DNA from: Shimia aestuarii
GTDB lineage: Bacteria > Pseudomonadota > Alphaproteobacteria > Rhodobacterales > Rhodobacteraceae
Assembly: GCF_900114635.1 (NCBI RefSeq)
Contig: NZ_FOTQ01000004.1
Span: forward strand, 124,001-188,000
DNA length: 64,000 nucleotides
Direction: 5' to 3'
The notes beneath the pieces are model-generated. The model made no database searches, was not told where the DNA came from, and saw only the letters and a list, made by a program, of their open reading frames with translations. A program made the position numbers and the translations under genes. This document shows positions 14,319 to 63,130 of this stretch, piece by piece. Position 1 is the first letter of the stretch. Each line of letters starts with the position of its first letter.

Positions 14319-16406
14319 TTACTCGGCCGCGATCTTGATCACTGGGGTCATGCGCGCAAGAATATCATCCGCGAGGTGGCATTTGACCTGATGGCCTTCG
14401 GCGAGCTGGCGGACGGGCGGTACCTCTTGCTCACACAGGCCCCCGGGCACCTCGGATTTCCAGCGGCAGCGCGTCTGGAAGGGGCAGCCCGGCGGCGGGT
14501 TCATGGCCGAAGGAATGTCGCCCTCAAGAACGATGTGCTCCTTCTCCACGGACGTATCGGCAATCGGCACCGCCGAGAGCAGCGCCTCGGTATAAGGGTG
14601 ATAGGGGGGCGCAAAAACCTGGTCGGTGGATCCCATCTCGACCACGTGGCCAAGATACATGACCATGACCCGATCGCTGAGATAACGCACGATGGAAAGG
14701 TCATGGGAAATGAAGAGCAGCGTGGTTTTTTCCTCGCGCTGGATTTCCATCAAGAGGTCGGTCACGGCGGCCTGCACCGACACGTCCAGCGCCGAGACAG
14801 GCTCGTCTGCCACCACGATGCGGGCCCCGCCCGCAAAGGCGCGGGCGATGCCGACACGCTGTTTCTGTCCGCCCGAAAGCTGGCGCGGCATGCGATCGGC
14901 AAAGGCGCGAGGCAGTTTGACGAGGTCGAGCAGTTCCAGCATGCGCTTACGCCGGTCGGCTTCGGACTCTCCAACGCCGAAGATTTCCAGGGCGCGCATG
15001 ATCTGGCGGCCCACGGTCATCGACGGGTTCAGCGTATCAAACGGGTTCTGGAACACCATCTGCACGTCGGCCACCGTCTTGGTGTCGCGTTTCTGGATTG
15101 GGGTTTGTTCGATGTTGTTCCCATCAAGGAGGATTTGCCCGTCGGTGGCTGTTTCCAACCCCATCAGCACCTTGGCAAAGGTGGATTTGCCGCACCCCGA
15201 CTCGCCGACAATGGCCAGCGTTTCGGATTCGCGTGCCTCGAAGGACAGGGTTTCGTTGGCCTTGACCACCTTCTTGTCGCCGCCGCCAAAGAGGGCATTG
15301 GCCGCCACTTCGTAGTATTTCTTGAGATTGTCCATCTTGAGAACAACCTTGCCGACCTCGGCCTTTTCCTTTTGCTCACCCATGGTGATCGGGGCGTTCC
15401 AGTCGATCTCCTCGGATTTAAGACAACGGGTTGAATGGCGCTCGAAGCCTTTGACATTCACCATTGGAATGTCCTGGGCATCACAGCGTCCTTCCTCGAA
15501 ATAGTCACAGCGCGGGCCAAAGTTACACCCCGGCGGGCGTTCGTGGGGCAAAGGGAAGTTGCCCGGAATCGCCACCAGCGGGCGCGCATTCTTGTCCGCT
15601 CCGGGAAGTGGGATAGATCGGAACAGCGCCTGCGTATAGGGGTGCTGCATGTTGTCGAACACATCTTCGATCGAGCCGCGCTCGACCGCTTCGCCGGAAT
15701 ACATCACACAGAGGCGATCACAGGTTTCAAGCACAAGGCCGAGATTGTGCGAGATGAAGAGCATCGACGTGCCGTATTTCTTGCCCAGATCCTTGACCAG
15801 TTCCACGACCGCCGCCTCGACGGTGACATCAAGCGCGGTGGTGGGTTCATCAAGGATCAGGAGCGCCGGTTTGGACATCAGCGCCATCGCGATCACGATC
15901 CGCTGCTGCTGGCCGCCCGAAAGCTGGTGCGGGAAGGAATTGAGCATCCGCTCCGGATCGGGCAGGCGCACATCCGTGACCACCTCGAGTGCACGGTCCC
16001 GCGCCTCTTTTTCGCCGATCCCCTCGTGGATCATCGGCACTTCCATGAGCTGCTTGCCGATCTTCATCGCGGGGTTCAGCGAGGCCATGGGCTCCTGATA
16101 GATCATGGCGATCTCGTTGCCGCGAATGTCGCGCAGCTCGTCAGCGCTCATTTCCGAAAGATCGCGGCCCTTGAACTTGATGGTGCCGCCGACGATCTTG
16201 CCGTTCTTGCCTAGGTCCTGCATGACGCCCAGCGCCACGGTGGATTTGCCGCAACCGGATTCCCCGACAAGGCCCACGGCCTCGCCCGGTTGCACCCGGA
16301 CCGAGAAATCCATCACTGCGGGGATCTCGCGCAGGCGGGTAAAAAAGGAGATGGACAGCTTGTCGATCTCAAGGATCGGGCCATCATAATCTGCCAACTT
16401 GCTCAT
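14319..16406 (-). CDS. Peptide-type ABC transporter, two fused ATPase domains
   Basis: A 695-aa fusion of DppD-like and DppF-like ATPases. Domain 1 has Walker A GESGCGKST (48-56), LSGGQ (162-166) and LLILDEP (182-188). Domain 2 has Walker A at 401-409 and LSGGQ at 510-514. Each half ends with the Cys-containing oligopeptide-transporter extension (PPGCNFGPRC, PPGCPFQTRC). It powers import through the two permeases encoded just upstream on the same strand. Fused ATPases are known in this superfamily. Substrate could be a peptide, a sugar or another solute; the missing binding protein prevents a call. Confidence 0.9.
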   Translation of the reverse strand: MSKLADYDGPILEIDKLSISFFTRLREIPAVMDFSVRVQPGEAVGLVGESGCGKSTVALGVMQDLGKNGKIVGGTIKFKGRDLSEMSADELRDIRGNEIAMIYQEPMASLNPAMKIGKQLMEVPMIHEGIGEKEARDRALEVVTDVRLPDPERMLNSFPHQLSGGQQQRIVIAMALMSKPALLILDEPTTALDVTVEAAVVELVKDLGKKYGTSMLFISHNLGLVLETCDRLCVMYSGEAVERGSIEDVFDNMQHPYTQALFRSIPLPGADKNARPLVAIPGNFPLPHERPPGCNFGPRCDYFEEGRCDAQDIPMVNVKGFERHSTRCLKSEEIDWNAPITMGEQKEKAEVGKVVLKMDNLKKYYEVAANALFGGGDKKVVKANETLSFEARESETLAIVGESGCGKSTFAKVLMGLETATDGQILLDGNNIEQTPIQKRDTKTVADVQMVFQNPFDTLNPSMTVGRQIMRALEIFGVGESEADRRKRMLELLDLVKLPRAFADRMPRQLSGGQKQRVGIARAFAGGARIVVADEPVSALDVSVQAAVTDLLMEIQREEKTTLLFISHDLSIVRYLSDRVMVMYLGHVVEMGSTDQVFAPPYHPYTEALLSAVPIADTSVEKEHIVLEGDIPSAMNPPPGCPFQTRCRWKSEVPGGLCEQEVPPVRQLAEGHQVKCHLADDILARMTPVIKIAAE

Positions 16407-35625: not shown

Positions 35626-35640
35626 GTAACTCGGGATTAA
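35626..35640 (+). promoter_or_regulatory. Candidate CtrA box before ctrA
   Basis: GTAA-N7-TTAA matches seven of eight positions of the CtrA site. It lies 54 nt before the ctrA start, so autoregulation is possible. Confidence 0.5.
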
Positions 35641-35693
35641 CCTTTTTTGTTCACGGTTAGGTCCAACGACGCCCCTGATGCGAGGAGTTTTCT

Positions 35694-36413
35694 ATGCGTG
35701 TTCTGTTGGTTGAGGATGATCCGACAACGTCCAAAAGTATCGAGATGATGCTGACCCATGCCAATCTCAACGTCTATGCGACGGACCTTGGGGAAGAGGG
35801 CATTGATCTGGCAAAACTGTATGACTATGACCTGATCCTTTTGGACCTTGGACTGCCGGACATGAATGGGCACGAGGTTTTGCGCCAGTTGCGCATTGCA
35901 CGGGTGGATACGCCGATCCTGATCCTGTCAGGGGCGGATGACACGGAAAGCAAGCTCAAGGGATTTGGGTTTGGGGCGGATGATTACCTGACCAAACCAT
36001 TCCATCGAGACGAACTGGTGGCACGAATTCACGCCATCATCCGCCGCTCCAAGGGGCATTCTCAGTCGATCATCAAGACCGGGCGTGTGTCGGTCAATCT
36101 GGATGCCAAGACTGTCGAGGTGGATGGCAAACCGGTGCACCTGACCGGTAAGGAATACCAGATGCTCGAGCTTTTGAGCCTGCGCAAGGGAACAACCCTC
36201 ACCAAGGAGATGTTTCTGAACCATCTTTACGGCGGCATGGATGAGCCGGAACTCAAGATCATCGACGTTTTCATCTGTAAGCTTCGCAAGAAGCTGAGCG
36301 AGGCTTCGGATGGAGCAAATTACATCGAAACAGTCTGGGGGCGAGGGTATGTTCTGCGCGACCCTGAACCGGGCAGCATCGGTGATGAAGAACAGATGGC
36401 GCTGCGCGCCTGA
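35694..36413 (+). CDS. ctrA: Cell cycle response regulator CtrA
   Basis: A 239-aa OmpR-type response regulator. The receiver holds the acidic pocket VEDD and phospho-acceptor D51 ([13 protein letters not shown]), with T and K in the usual places. The winged HTH (about 125-230) has [20 protein letters not shown] and [12 protein letters not shown], nearly invariant in CtrA. It ends ALRA rather than the AlaAla ClpXP tag of Caulobacter CtrA, so turnover may differ. In Rhodobacterales it controls motility and gene transfer agents rather than being essential. A GAGGAG site precedes the start. Confidence 0.95.
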
Positions 36414-59954: not shown

Positions 59955-61499
59955 ATGGCAGAAGCAACGACACGTCGGCGGAGCCGCTCGGGTGGAGGGG
60001 CCGCACGTCGGGCCGAACGCACCACGCTCAAGATCGAGACCGCAAAATACATCGAACGCAACATTCCGCTGTTCGAGATCCTCAACGAGGAAGCGCTCGA
60101 AATAATCGAGGCCAATGCGGAATTGATTCTTGAAGAGGTTGGCGTGAATTTCGTCAACAATCCCGGGGCGCTGGAGCGCTGGCGCAATGCGGGTGCCGAT
60201 GTCGAGGGCGAACGTGTGCGCATTCCGCGCGGCCTTGCGCGGGAGCTTTGCAAGACGGCGCCGTCGCGGATCACGCAGCACGCGCGCAACCCCGAGCGGA
60301 CCGTCGAGATCGGTGGCAACACGCTGGTTTGCGCCCCGGTCTATGGCCCGCCCTTCGTCCGGGATTTGGATGGTGGTCGGCGTTATGCGACGATGGATGA
60401 TTTCCAGAAATTCGTGAAGCTGGGCTACATGTCCAAGTGGTTGCACCATTCGGGCGGTACGGTTTGTGAACCGACTGACGTGGCGGTGAACAAGCGTCAC
60501 CTGGACATGTTGCTGGCGCACATGACCCTGTCGGACAAGCCGTTCATGGGCTCGGTCACGGAACCCAGCCGCGCGCAGGACAGCGTTGAGATGTGTGAAA
60601 TCCTGTTCGGCAAAGAGTTCGTGCAGGAAAACACGGTGATGACGTCGCTCATCAACATCAACTCGCCCATGACCTTTGACGACGTGATGATGGGCGCGCT
60701 TGAGGTTTACGCGGCCAACAACCAGGCCTGCATCGTGTCGCCCTTTATCGTGGGTGGTGCCATGGCGCCGGTGTCGGTGGCGGGCACGCTGACGCAGGTC
60801 TTGGCCGAGGTGCTGGCGGGGATCGCCTATTCGCAGTTGATCCGCCCCGGCGCGCCGGTGATCTTCGGGGCCTTCGTGACCTCGATCGACATGAATTCGG
60901 GGGCGCCGACCTTTGGCACGCCGGAAGCGAGCCAGATCCTTTATGGGGCCGGTCAGCTGGCGCGTCGTCTTGGTCTGCCGTTCCGTTCGGGTGGGGGCTT
61001 GTGCGGCTCGAAGCTGCCGGATGCGCAGGCAGCCTATGAAACCGCGCACACGCACAACGCGGCGCTGTTGGGCGGCGTGAACTTCATGCTGCATTCGTGT
61101 GGCTGGCTGGAAGGCGGGCTGGTGTCGAGCTTTGAGAAATTCGTGATGGACGCGGATCAGCTTGGCGTGTTGCACCAGATGGCGCGCGGCGTGAGCCATG
61201 ACGAGAACGCGCAGGCGCTGGACGCGATCCGTGAAGTGGGGCCGGGGGGGCATTACCTTGGCTGCGCCCACACGCAGGCGAACTTCAAAGAGGCGTTCTG
61301 GCGGTCTGAACTGCTTGACTACAAACCGTTCGAGACATGGGAAGACGAGGGTGCGCGCGATACGCAGGCGCTGGCGTCGCTGCGGGTGGAAAAACTGCTG
61401 GCGGGCTATCAGAAACCCGCCATGGATCCAGGCGTGGAAGAGGCGCTCAACGCCTATGTCGCCGAGAAGAAAGCCTCGATGCCGGACAGCTTCATCTGA
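59955..61499 (+). CDS. MttB-family corrinoid methyltransferase (no pyrrolysine)
   Basis: A 514-aa TIM-barrel protein of the trimethylamine methyltransferase family. There is no in-frame TAG, so it lacks pyrrolysine, like glycine betaine or other quaternary amine methyltransferases. The AFVTSIDMNSGAPTFGTPE and FRSGGGLCGSKLPDAQAAYE segments are family motifs. The basic N-terminal tail (RRRSRSGGGAARR) is an odd extension. No corrinoid protein gene is next to it, so its partner is elsewhere. Confidence 0.85.
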   Translation: MAEATTRRRSRSGGGAARRAERTTLKIETAKYIERNIPLFEILNEEALEIIEANAELILEEVGVNFVNNPGALERWRNAGADVEGERVRIPRGLARELCKTAPSRITQHARNPERTVEIGGNTLVCAPVYGPPFVRDLDGGRRYATMDDFQKFVKLGYMSKWLHHSGGTVCEPTDVAVNKRHLDMLLAHMTLSDKPFMGSVTEPSRAQDSVEMCEILFGKEFVQENTVMTSLININSPMTFDDVMMGALEVYAANNQACIVSPFIVGGAMAPVSVAGTLTQVLAEVLAGIAYSQLIRPGAPVIFGAFVTSIDMNSGAPTFGTPEASQILYGAGQLARRLGLPFRSGGGLCGSKLPDAQAAYETAHTHNAALLGGVNFMLHSCGWLEGGLVSSFEKFVMDADQLGVLHQMARGVSHDENAQALDAIREVGPGGHYLGCAHTQANFKEAFWRSELLDYKPFETWEDEGARDTQALASLRVEKLLAGYQKPAMDPGVEEALNAYVAEKKASMPDSFI

Positions 61500-61509
61500 T
61501 CCAACTGGC

Positions 61510-61803
61510 CTAGCAAGTGCCTTGTGAGGCCCGCAAGACGCGGGCTTCGCCCATCATGGCGATGAGAATGTCGACATGTTTGACCAATGAATAGGCGGCG
61601 TCGCTTGTGCGTCGCTGCCGGTTCAGGTCGTCTTCCAATTCCATCAGACGCATCAGGGCCGCGCCGCTGCGCGGCAAAGGGCCATACCCCAGATGCCGCT
61701 TGAGGTGCTGTTCGCGCCGGTATTCGTTTGCGCCCGCGCGGGCCGCGCGGATCAGCAGGCGGGGACGGTTCAGGCTGTTGAGCATGGCGAGGATGTCTTT
61801 CAT
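61510..61803 (-). CDS. DUF6477 family protein
   Basis: A 97-aa protein, mostly helical (RPRLLIRAARAGANEYRREQ and LMRLMELEDDLNRQRR). The pattern is that of DUF6477, a Rhodobacterales family. ATG 61803 is chosen over an upstream ATG since it matches the family start. It is divergent from the DUF6456 protein, 244 nt apart. A role with that protein in gene transfer agent control is an inference. Confidence 0.7.
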   Translation of the reverse strand: MKDILAMLNSLNRPRLLIRAARAGANEYRREQHLKRHLGYGPLPRSGAALMRLMELEDDLNRQRRTSDAAYSLVKHVDILIAMMGEARVLRASQGTC

Positions 61804-61936
61804 GGAATCACTCCTGTCTTGGATTGACCCCAGAAAGCACAACTATAGCGGGTGTTGCATGTAGCGCAGAACAGCGTACGCGGTCTTTCGGGAGCGTTCA
61901 CGTTTTGGAAACAATACTGACCTCACGGCTCGAATG

Positions 61937-61951
61937 TTAACAGCTAGGTAA
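61937..61951 (+). promoter_or_regulatory. Candidate CtrA box before the DUF6456 gene
   Basis: TTAA-N7-GTAA matches seven of eight CtrA site positions. It lies 97 nt before the DUF6456 start in the divergent region shared with DUF6477. Confidence 0.5.
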
Positions 61952-61967
61952 GAATTCAATTCTAAGT

Positions 61968-62000
61968 TGTGGAAAATTCGAGGGAAAACCTTGTGGGTAA
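61968..62000 (-). promoter_or_regulatory. Two DnaA-box-like sites
   Basis: TGTGGAAAA (61968-61976) and TGTGGGTAA (61992-62000) each differ by one base from the complement of TTATCCACA. They face the same way, 24 nt apart, next to the CtrA box. Confidence 0.35.
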
Positions 62001-62047
62001 CTAGGGCACTTGTCCTGACCCGTACGGAGCAGAAGGAGAACGGTGGG

Positions 62048-63130
62048 ATGCGTATGGAAAGCCGCAATGAAGATTTGCCTGCCTGGGTACCTGAGAGTGT
62101 TGCGCGGTACGTGGCGCATACCGAGGACGGGTTGTCGATCCGGGAACTGGCGCGGCGTGACGGATGCCATGCATCCACCATCCTGCGCCAGATCCGCAAA
62201 TTAGAGTCCAAGCGGGATGATCCGCTGATCGATGCGGCCCTGGACCGGTTCCGTCGCGCGTCGGAGCGGGGAAGTCCGGCAAAACCGAAGGCACAACAGG
62301 CGGTCCCAAGCGAAGACACGGTGATGCAGGAAGGGCGGCGTGTTCTGAGCCGGCTGTGCGAAACGGGTGCAGTGCTGGCCGTGGCGCGGGACATGGACAA
62401 GGCGGTGGTCGTGCGCGACCGGGGTGATGGGGGATCGGCGCGCACGGCCGTGGTAGACAGGGACGTGGCACAGGCCATGGTCCTGAAGGACTGGATCAGT
62501 TGTTCGGCGCAGGGGCGCATCGCGCAATACACGATCACGGCGGCAGGGAAGGCTGCGCTGCAGCGCATGCTGGCCGAGGCGGAAAATGCCGCGCAGGGCT
62601 TTGCCGAGGCACAAAACCCGTTTGCCGAGCAGCATCGCGCGTGGGGCGAAAAGACCGTGCGCGAGAAGGGACGCACGCGGCAGATGCGGTTCAACATGGC
62701 CGAGAGCCCGCTCACATCGCTGGCGCGGCGCAAGGACAAGGATGGCAAACCGTTCCTGAGCACCGATCTTGTCGCAGCCGGAGAGCGGTTGCGCGAGGAT
62801 TTTGAGCTGGCGCAGATGGGGCCGCGCGTCGGGCAGAACTGGGAGCGGTTCCTGACCGGGGGCGAGCGTGGCGGGTATCGGCCCGACAGCGGCGTCGGAT
62901 CCGGCCCCGATGGCGCGCGCGAGCGCGTGGCGAAGGCTCTGGAAGATCTTGGCGATGGGCTGTCGGACGTCGCATTGCGCTGTTGCTGTTTCCTGGAAGG
63001 GTTGGAAACCGCGGAAAAGCGGCTGGGTTGGTCGGCGCGGTCGGGCAAGATCGTGCTACGGATTGCGCTGATGCGGCTGCGCGAACATTATCGCGGACAG
63101 GCCGGGGGCGCCGGGGATTACATCGGTTGA
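62048..63130 (+). CDS. DUF6456 HTH protein, candidate GafA-like GTA activator
   Basis: A 360-aa DNA-binding protein. An HTH at 28-52 (LSIRELARRDGCHASTILRQ) is DnaA- or sigma-like; a possible winged helix covers 95-175; the C-terminal DUF6456 domain (about 235-350) has PFLSTDLVAAGERLREDFEL and a sigma-region-4-like HTH (TAEKRLGWSARSGKIVLRIA). ATG 62048 follows AAGGAG. GafA of Rhodobacter capsulatus, a direct activator of gene transfer agent genes, has this layout as I recall it. The DUF6477 neighbour and CtrA box support the match, which needs alignment. Confidence 0.7.
   Translation: MRMESRNEDLPAWVPESVARYVAHTEDGLSIRELARRDGCHASTILRQIRKLESKRDDPLIDAALDRFRRASERGSPAKPKAQQAVPSEDTVMQEGRRVLSRLCETGAVLAVARDMDKAVVVRDRGDGGSARTAVVDRDVAQAMVLKDWISCSAQGRIAQYTITAAGKAALQRMLAEAENAAQGFAEAQNPFAEQHRAWGEKTVREKGRTRQMRFNMAESPLTSLARRKDKDGKPFLSTDLVAAGERLREDFELAQMGPRVGQNWERFLTGGERGGYRPDSGVGSGPDGARERVAKALEDLGDGLSDVALRCCCFLEGLETAEKRLGWSARSGKIVLRIALMRLREHYRGQAGGAGDYIG

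Follow-up and report, generated by a model that had tools for sequence, protein, structure and literature searches.

The gafA locus of Shimia aestuarii: a CtrA box and clustered DnaA-like boxes at a putative on-switch for gene transfer agents

The gafA and DUF6477 genes

The window, as we term the whole 64,000-nucleotide stretch of Shimia aestuarii DNA that was analyzed, contains a forward-strand open reading frame (62048-63130) that encodes a protein of 360 amino acids. As had been predicted from the letters of the DNA, this is a DUF6456 protein: the domain occupies residues 213-349 (E=1.9e-61, 206.5 bits versus a Pfam cut-off of 26.3), and the gene is the only one of its kind in the S. aestuarii genome. 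The N-terminal helix-turn-helix (HTH) that had been claimed along with it is hinted at by Pfam but falls below the cut-off; the best match is HTH_38, at 20.5 of 27 bits. The open reading frame that follows this gene presumably encodes a peroxiredoxin. In Rhodobacter capsulatus, lipA (published, and seen by us as an open reading frame) adjoins gafA instead.

Our R. capsulatus reference was genome G467, whose gene transfer agent (GTA) portal matches chain Rcc01684 of PDB entry 6tba at 100% identity over 382 residues. It has a single DUF6456 gene, which encodes 382 amino acids, and the product carries E8, S9, L34, S43, I45, L46, R50, R51 and Q54, the function-critical N-terminal residues of GafA as numbered in PMC9638019. 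Over residues 1-360, the window protein has 57% identity to this GafA (E=1e-128); it shares the HASTILR stretch and has six of the nine residues at the same numbers (E8, L34, S43, I45, L46 and R50); S9, R51 and Q54 are replaced by D, K and S. Given the portal-identified reference, the length of its GafA, the nine residues and the end-to-end identity, the window protein is, by its sequence, the orthologue of R. capsulatus GafA, and its membership is settled at that level. The original prediction thus placed the protein in the right group, for it matches R. capsulatus GafA itself. When named genomes were scanned with a GafA alignment, R. capsulatus was not among the best 80 of 557 matches. Identity is higher within the genus (78% to Shimia abyssi and 76% to Thiosulfatihalobacter marinus), by which we mean the grouping of the genome collection, which takes in these two species and Shimia sp. 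Alg240-R146.

GafA, the switch behind the release of virus-like particles of gene transfer in some marine bacteria, is reported throughout the Rhodobacterales (PMC6363796, PMC9638019). The R. capsulatus protein is described as similar to winged-helix proteins in its middle part and to sigma-4 HTHs at its C-terminus; it binds the GTA promoter and the omega subunit of RNA polymerase, and it is required for GTA production (PMC6363796, PMC9638019). We also found DUF6456 in our control genome, Caulobacter vibrioides. According to PMC11150451, the N-terminal part of GafA has a homologue in GafY of Caulobacter crescentus and the C-terminal part one in GafZ; that system has two genes under RogA and IHF control, whereas S. 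aestuarii has one gene.

Divergent from gafA, and 244 bases away from it, lies a minus-strand gene (61510-61803) for a 97-residue DUF6477 protein (E=1.5e-37, over the Pfam cut-off), again as predicted. Compared with R. capsulatus rcc01866, it is 47% identical over residues 1-90, and a divergent DUF6477 match lies beside gafA in 61 of the 69 loci read. The part in GTA expression that had been ascribed to rcc01866 calls for a correction: the gene is reported to be necessary for particle maturation and lysis, and particles are still produced without it (PMC9638019). The mutant is said there to resemble a cckA mutant, a phenotype that DUF6477 acting together with CtrA would fit. The predicted structure of the window's DUF6477 protein is a confident model of five helices, for which no solved structural relative was found. 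Its best viral structure match is a 72-residue protein of Roseophage RDJL Phi 2 (probability 1.00, E=0.047), probably the counterpart, to judge from its size, of the small gene gp36 of RDJL Phi 1; a sequence search of the phage collection with DUF6477 gave no match. In RDJL Phi 1, gp36 follows gp37, annotated as ctrA, which in turn follows gp38, a GafA-like gene (24% identity, 93% cover). The phage genes run in one direction, and they differ from the window in having a ctrA gene among them. Such phages have been published as carrying gafA, a piece of ctrA and rcc01866. One record filed as a phage, L034 (MW462191.1), has a protease II, a DNA-binding protein by its gafA-like gene and a "sulfur acceptor protein", which look chromosomal.

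Two further observations concern the DUF6477 side. The adjoining open reading frame of the window (59955-61499) has a relative in 57 of the 68 gafA loci of related genomes, and we take it to resemble the MttB trimethylamine methyltransferase family. In the spacer between the two genes, at about 61835-61870, there is a conserved GCACAAC...GGGTGTTGC element, which stands at the same place in relatives and has a similar sequence in R. capsulatus; it is possibly a promoter or operator of the DUF6477 gene.

The capacity for gene transfer agents

A search of the S. aestuarii genome recovered an RcGTA-type structural cluster, as would be expected of an organism with this regulator according to the original prediction. 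The cluster occupies a stretch of about 20 kb on another contig (L003), with its genes on one strand in the order large terminase, portal, prohead protease, capsid, head-tail connector, head completion, tail completion, tail tube, a GTA-gp10-type gene, a 230-residue open reading frame with no Pfam match, DUF2460, baseplate hub, NlpC/P60, a GTA_TIM protein of 1,306 residues and DUF7742, followed by a serine acetyltransferase. The cluster genes that were read are open and complete by Pfam. The GTA_TIM protein scores 1,564 bits against chain 8A of 6tba, and the portal 640 bits against Rcc01684. A GH108 endolysin lies about 66 kb from the cluster on the same contig. With GafA orthology, an RcGTA-type cluster and an endolysin in one genome, the suggestion that S. 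aestuarii may make GTAs is a fair one.

Just before the presumed g1 start, most of 18 aligned rows from the genus share a strongly conserved leader, TGTGCGGAGGGG-NN-ACTGCGCATGAGAGGCAATGAGCAC, possibly an operator or an RNA hairpin. On L003, where the terminase starts at 15475 on the minus strand, the leader lies upstream of that start, and a sequence like TTGAC-N17-TATAAT is found still further upstream.

Among 120 relatives, DUF6456 was found in 74, GTA_TIM in 66 and DUF6477 in 64. Three of these genomes (G004, G054 and G069) keep gafA and the DUF6477 gene with no GTA_TIM (E<=0.001) and no GTA portal (E<=1e-150); perhaps GafA has another job in them, or the cluster was lost recently. The gafA gene is broken in G017 and matched in two pieces in G051, both of which still have GTA_TIM and terminase, and these genomes represent natural losses of the activator. 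In G027, there is a stop inside the domain.

The CtrA box and the DnaA-like boxes of the control region

The control region was compared across gafA loci from 68 relatives and the window, 69 in all; five gafA matches that were weak, short or distant (G046, G083, G086, G089 and G105) were left out. Nine of the 69 loci (G006, G024, G035, G037, G039, G052, G074, G075 and G080) lacked a usable DUF6477 match or a usable gafA start, or were cut by a contig end, and stand outside the counts of 60 gafA-DUF6477 spacers. A second set, from named genomes, used 77 of 80 loci (L184, L215 and L220 were left out). The two sets overlap, with at least four shared genomes (L153 is G014, L154 is G002, L214 is G018 and L180 is G043). 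Shuffled controls preserved dinucleotides for counts of DnaA boxes and mononucleotides for the CtrA box, spaced pairs and inverted repeat.

The predicted CtrA-like box, TTAA-N7-GTAA, is literally present in the window at 61937-61952 on the plus strand (TTAACAGCTAGGTAAG), with one mismatch in ten to the TTAAC-N6-GTAAC that aligned spacers share. At this threshold of no more than one mismatch in ten, the box is found in 42 of the 60 spacers and in 66 of the 77 from the overlapping named set, as against 21 of 1,200 shuffled spacers. From the end of the box to the gafA start codon there are 95 bp in the window and 69 bp in R. capsulatus, where CtrA is reported to bind the equivalent box; the latter figure fits the published distance of 65-71 bp (PMC6363796). 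In many spacers, TAGGTT or TAAGTT stands some 10 bases past the box (TAAGTT at 61963-61968, plus strand, in the window). On its position and conservation this could be a -10 element, the CtrA box then covering the -35. The assignment is doubtful, because RNA-seq placed the R. capsulatus gafA start site further upstream, at the CtrA box, about 87 bp before the start codon (PMC6363796).

The regulator expected at this box is encoded in the same window, about 26 kb away: ctrA lies at 35694-36365 on the plus strand (NF045991, 429.5 bits versus a cut-off of 350). A motif match upstream of it, GTAAC-N6-TTAAC at 35626-35641 on the same strand (GTAACTCGGGATTAAC), is the CtrA box of ctrA itself.

Upstream of the gafA CtrA box, at 61895-61913, is an imperfect copy of an inverted repeat, TNTTYA-N7-NAAANA, from which the window's copy departs at the first base. 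It is a candidate site for the C-terminal domain of GafA, the binding elements of which, according to PMC11150451, have not been mapped at nucleotide resolution. Of the spacers that have a CtrA box, 16 of 42 and 23 of 66 carry the repeat with its start 40-43 bp upstream of that box (39 of 108 over the two overlapping sets), versus a mean of 0.015 of 42, and at most 1, in shuffles. In R. capsulatus, the copy TCTTTAGAGTTTATAAAGA forms a perfect dyad 41 bp upstream of the CtrA box and 107-126 bases before the start codon. The C-terminal domain is reported to bind a 50-bp fragment of the R. capsulatus gafA promoter in EMSA (PMC9638019). Fragment 3 of that assay is presumably the distal one, and TCTTTAGAGTTTATAAAGA should lie within it.

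Downstream of the CtrA box are the two DnaA-box-like sites of the original prediction, TTTTCCACA at 61968-61976 and TTACCCACA at 61992-62000, both on the minus strand and each with one mismatch to TTATNCACA. They form a pair spaced 24 bp apart. On their own the two sites would be weak, but relatives have the pair at the same position. The 60 spacers hold 17 perfect TTATNCACA sites (mean 0.37, highest 3, in 100 shuffles) and, when one mismatch is allowed, 78 sites (mean 10.8, SD 3.0, highest 21). A single strand carries 16 of the 17 perfect sites and 70 of the 78; in the genus, most sites stand near -80, -68 and -56 relative to the gafA start codon. In the named set, 13 of the 77 spacers have a perfect box, 44 have a site with at most one mismatch and 33 have none. 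Box density is 1.19 per kb in the spacers versus 0.006 in the rest of the loci, a difference of about 200-fold (0.75 versus 0.002 in the named set). Since the rest of the loci is mostly coding, the shuffles are the fairer control. Pairs spaced 11-13 or 23-25 bp occur in 20 of 60 spacers and in 15 of the 77 named ones; 200 shuffles gave a mean of 0.025 of 60 and a maximum of 1.

Searches of 24 whole genomes of the genus for the 24-bp pair gave seven exact matches, of which six are at gafA. When one mismatch was allowed, there were 25 matches, 10 of them at gafA, the window's included, and no other place in the genus has the pair as often. The six exact matches at gafA come from close relatives and are not six independent events. 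A reversed-pattern control gave two matches, and another sequence recurs elsewhere in four genomes. For the group of loci, the clustering of putative DnaA boxes at the gafA promoter is beyond chance. A "DnaA-type" control region, as it had been called, is thus borne out at the level of sequence, in boxes that are enriched and position-specific across relatives.

What reads these boxes?

It is improbable, although by no means negligibly so, that the locus is simply a GafA locus under CtrA exactly as in R. capsulatus, with DnaA-like boxes that have no role. The R. capsulatus spacer has the same arrangement and contains no DnaA-like box; 20 of the 60 spacers have no site even at one mismatch; and the window's boxes are imperfect. 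The same facts weigh against gating by DnaA, as does the published start site of R. capsulatus gafA, with which the proposed -10 element does not agree. A set of boxes with no role, however, would be hard to square with their density, the bias toward one strand, the 12/24-bp spacing, the frequency of spaced pairs relative to shuffles and the place of gafA as the commonest home of the 24-bp pair.

GafA itself, with its DnaA-like N-terminal domain, could read the sites, and the boxes would then serve autoregulation. Residues 1-86 of the R. capsulatus protein are reported to resemble the DNA-binding domain of DnaA and to bind the gafA promoter, though non-specifically (PMC9638019). Against this stand the same paper's report that the N-terminal domain is dispensable for autoregulation, and the box-free gafA promoter of R. 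capsulatus, whose GafA nevertheless has the same HASTILR stretch. We also examined the DNA upstream of the GTA terminase, where the domain is reported to bind specifically in R. capsulatus. Of 63 places with GTA_TIM, 52 were taken; two had no such stretch, and the remaining 50 and the window's genome gave 51 upstream regions, of which the 40 with a terminase match were counted. These sequences, of up to 720 bp, contain nine sites with at most one mismatch versus 11.7 expected, which is no excess, and two perfect boxes versus 0.4 expected, too few to decide. The terminase counts and the R. capsulatus promoter weaken the case for GafA, a reader that we consider quite improbable; given the lack of a near-match excess upstream of the terminase, DnaA, the initiator of DNA replication, is on balance the better candidate.

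We lean, with some reserve, toward DnaA gating in the following form: gafA and the divergent DUF6477 gene (rcc01866) would be the dedicated on-switch of an RcGTA-type GTA, with CtrA activating gafA and DnaA gating it. Binding of CtrA to its box at 61937-61952 would start gafA transcription. GafA would then boost its own promoter and turn on the GTA cluster via the omega subunit, as has been shown in R. capsulatus. In this lineage, unlike in R. capsulatus, DnaA would also bind boxes located 15 to 48 bases past the CtrA box, which would place it either in the start region or in the 5' leader, according to the position of the transcription start. We observe the boxes and their conservation, and infer that DnaA reads them and that its effect is repression. 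Most likely, DnaA would repress gafA as long as its active form is abundant and would let go of it when DnaA activity falls.

Loss of the CtrA box in one Shimia clade

Among the 24 genomes of the genus that are readable at the gafA spacer, 10 keep the CtrA box, the window included, and 14 do not. (G006, cut by a contig end, is not in this count; G024, which stands outside the 60-spacer counts, was read separately for box loss and for the dyad described below.) On a GafA tree of 62 rows, from which G017 was omitted for its broken gene, the 13 box-less rows with an intact gene require one change, versus a shuffled mean of 12.0. Support for the box-less clade is 94/93, and it appears in 94% of 200 bootstrap trees, a bootstrap that had not fully settled. 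On this tree, the CtrA box was lost once within the genus, and not in S. aestuarii. It is also missing, at the same threshold, from five of the 37 spacers of other genera (G028, G044, G047, G054 and G060) and from 11 of the 77 named spacers.

Two simple accounts of this loss were rejected. CtrA as such is still there: ctrA is over its cut-off in 25 of 25 genomes of the genus. Further, in all 10 genomes of the genus whose rows were listed, ctrA is preceded by a CtrA box at a distance of 51-55 bp, and G004, G007, G008, G015 and G019, all box-less at gafA, keep it. Nor has the box moved, for no match with at most one mismatch in ten was found anywhere in the loci, of about 2.8 kb, of the 14 box-less species.

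Where the CtrA box was, 10 of the 14 box-less species have a dyad, TRCACRGC-N8-GCTGTGYA, with conserved arms and a variable loop. These are G003, G007, G010, G011, G012 (one base off), G017, G019, G020, G022 and G024; their spacers are L069, L072, L078, L087, L088, L090-L092, L094 and L100, the last being that of G017. In these species, the arms of the dyad and the first DnaA-like site overlap. The dyad was found in none of the 10 box-keeping members of the genus, none of the 37 spacers of other genera and none of the 77 named spacers. The other four box-less species, G004, G008, G015 and G018, have a different sequence at this position.

Control sites of this kind might be expected to drift in a decaying system, in which the regulator is kept and GTAs are no longer made. 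The relatives with broken gafA genes (G017, G051 and G027), and those with gafA but no GTA_TIM or portal, speak for such decay. Selection and gene content argue otherwise. The dN/dS of gafA was computed for ten pairs: five box-less pairs gave 0.05-0.14 and five box-keeping ones 0.08-0.21, although several of the dS values come close to saturation. A TerL pair, G008-G018 (0.36), was left out, since its dN and a protein identity of 96% disagree. With dN/dS this low, gafA is not decaying. For the S. aestuarii genome itself, in which the cluster genes read are complete, decay is quite unlikely.

A wider reading, to which we give somewhat less than an even chance, is that in Shimia and some other roseobacters the master switch for GTAs is coupled directly to chromosome replication: a DnaA-box array just past the CtrA box at gafA would let DnaA activity gate particle production, beside or instead of CtrA, and one clade would have exchanged CtrA for a dyad-binding regulator in most of its species. 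According to this proposal, a Shimia clade with no CtrA at all at the promoter would be keeping gafA under strong selection.

The gafA/DUF6477 locus as such is of a known kind. The open-access literature searched describes neither a DnaA-box array at gafA nor a clade-specific replacement of its CtrA box. Of the papers that pair "gene transfer agent" with "DnaA box", none is about gafA by its title, and the text available from PMC6473078 mentions DnaA but names no DnaA box at gafA. That paper does suggest that in Dinoroseobacter shibae the positions of genes couple such traits to replication.

What matters here is the question of what sets the time of GTA production and the small number of cells that take part in it. 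A DnaA-box array at gafA, absent from the model species R. capsulatus, would make a coupling to replication directly testable. The Shimia clade that has lost the CtrA box is a natural experiment that bears on the need for CtrA in switching on GTAs.
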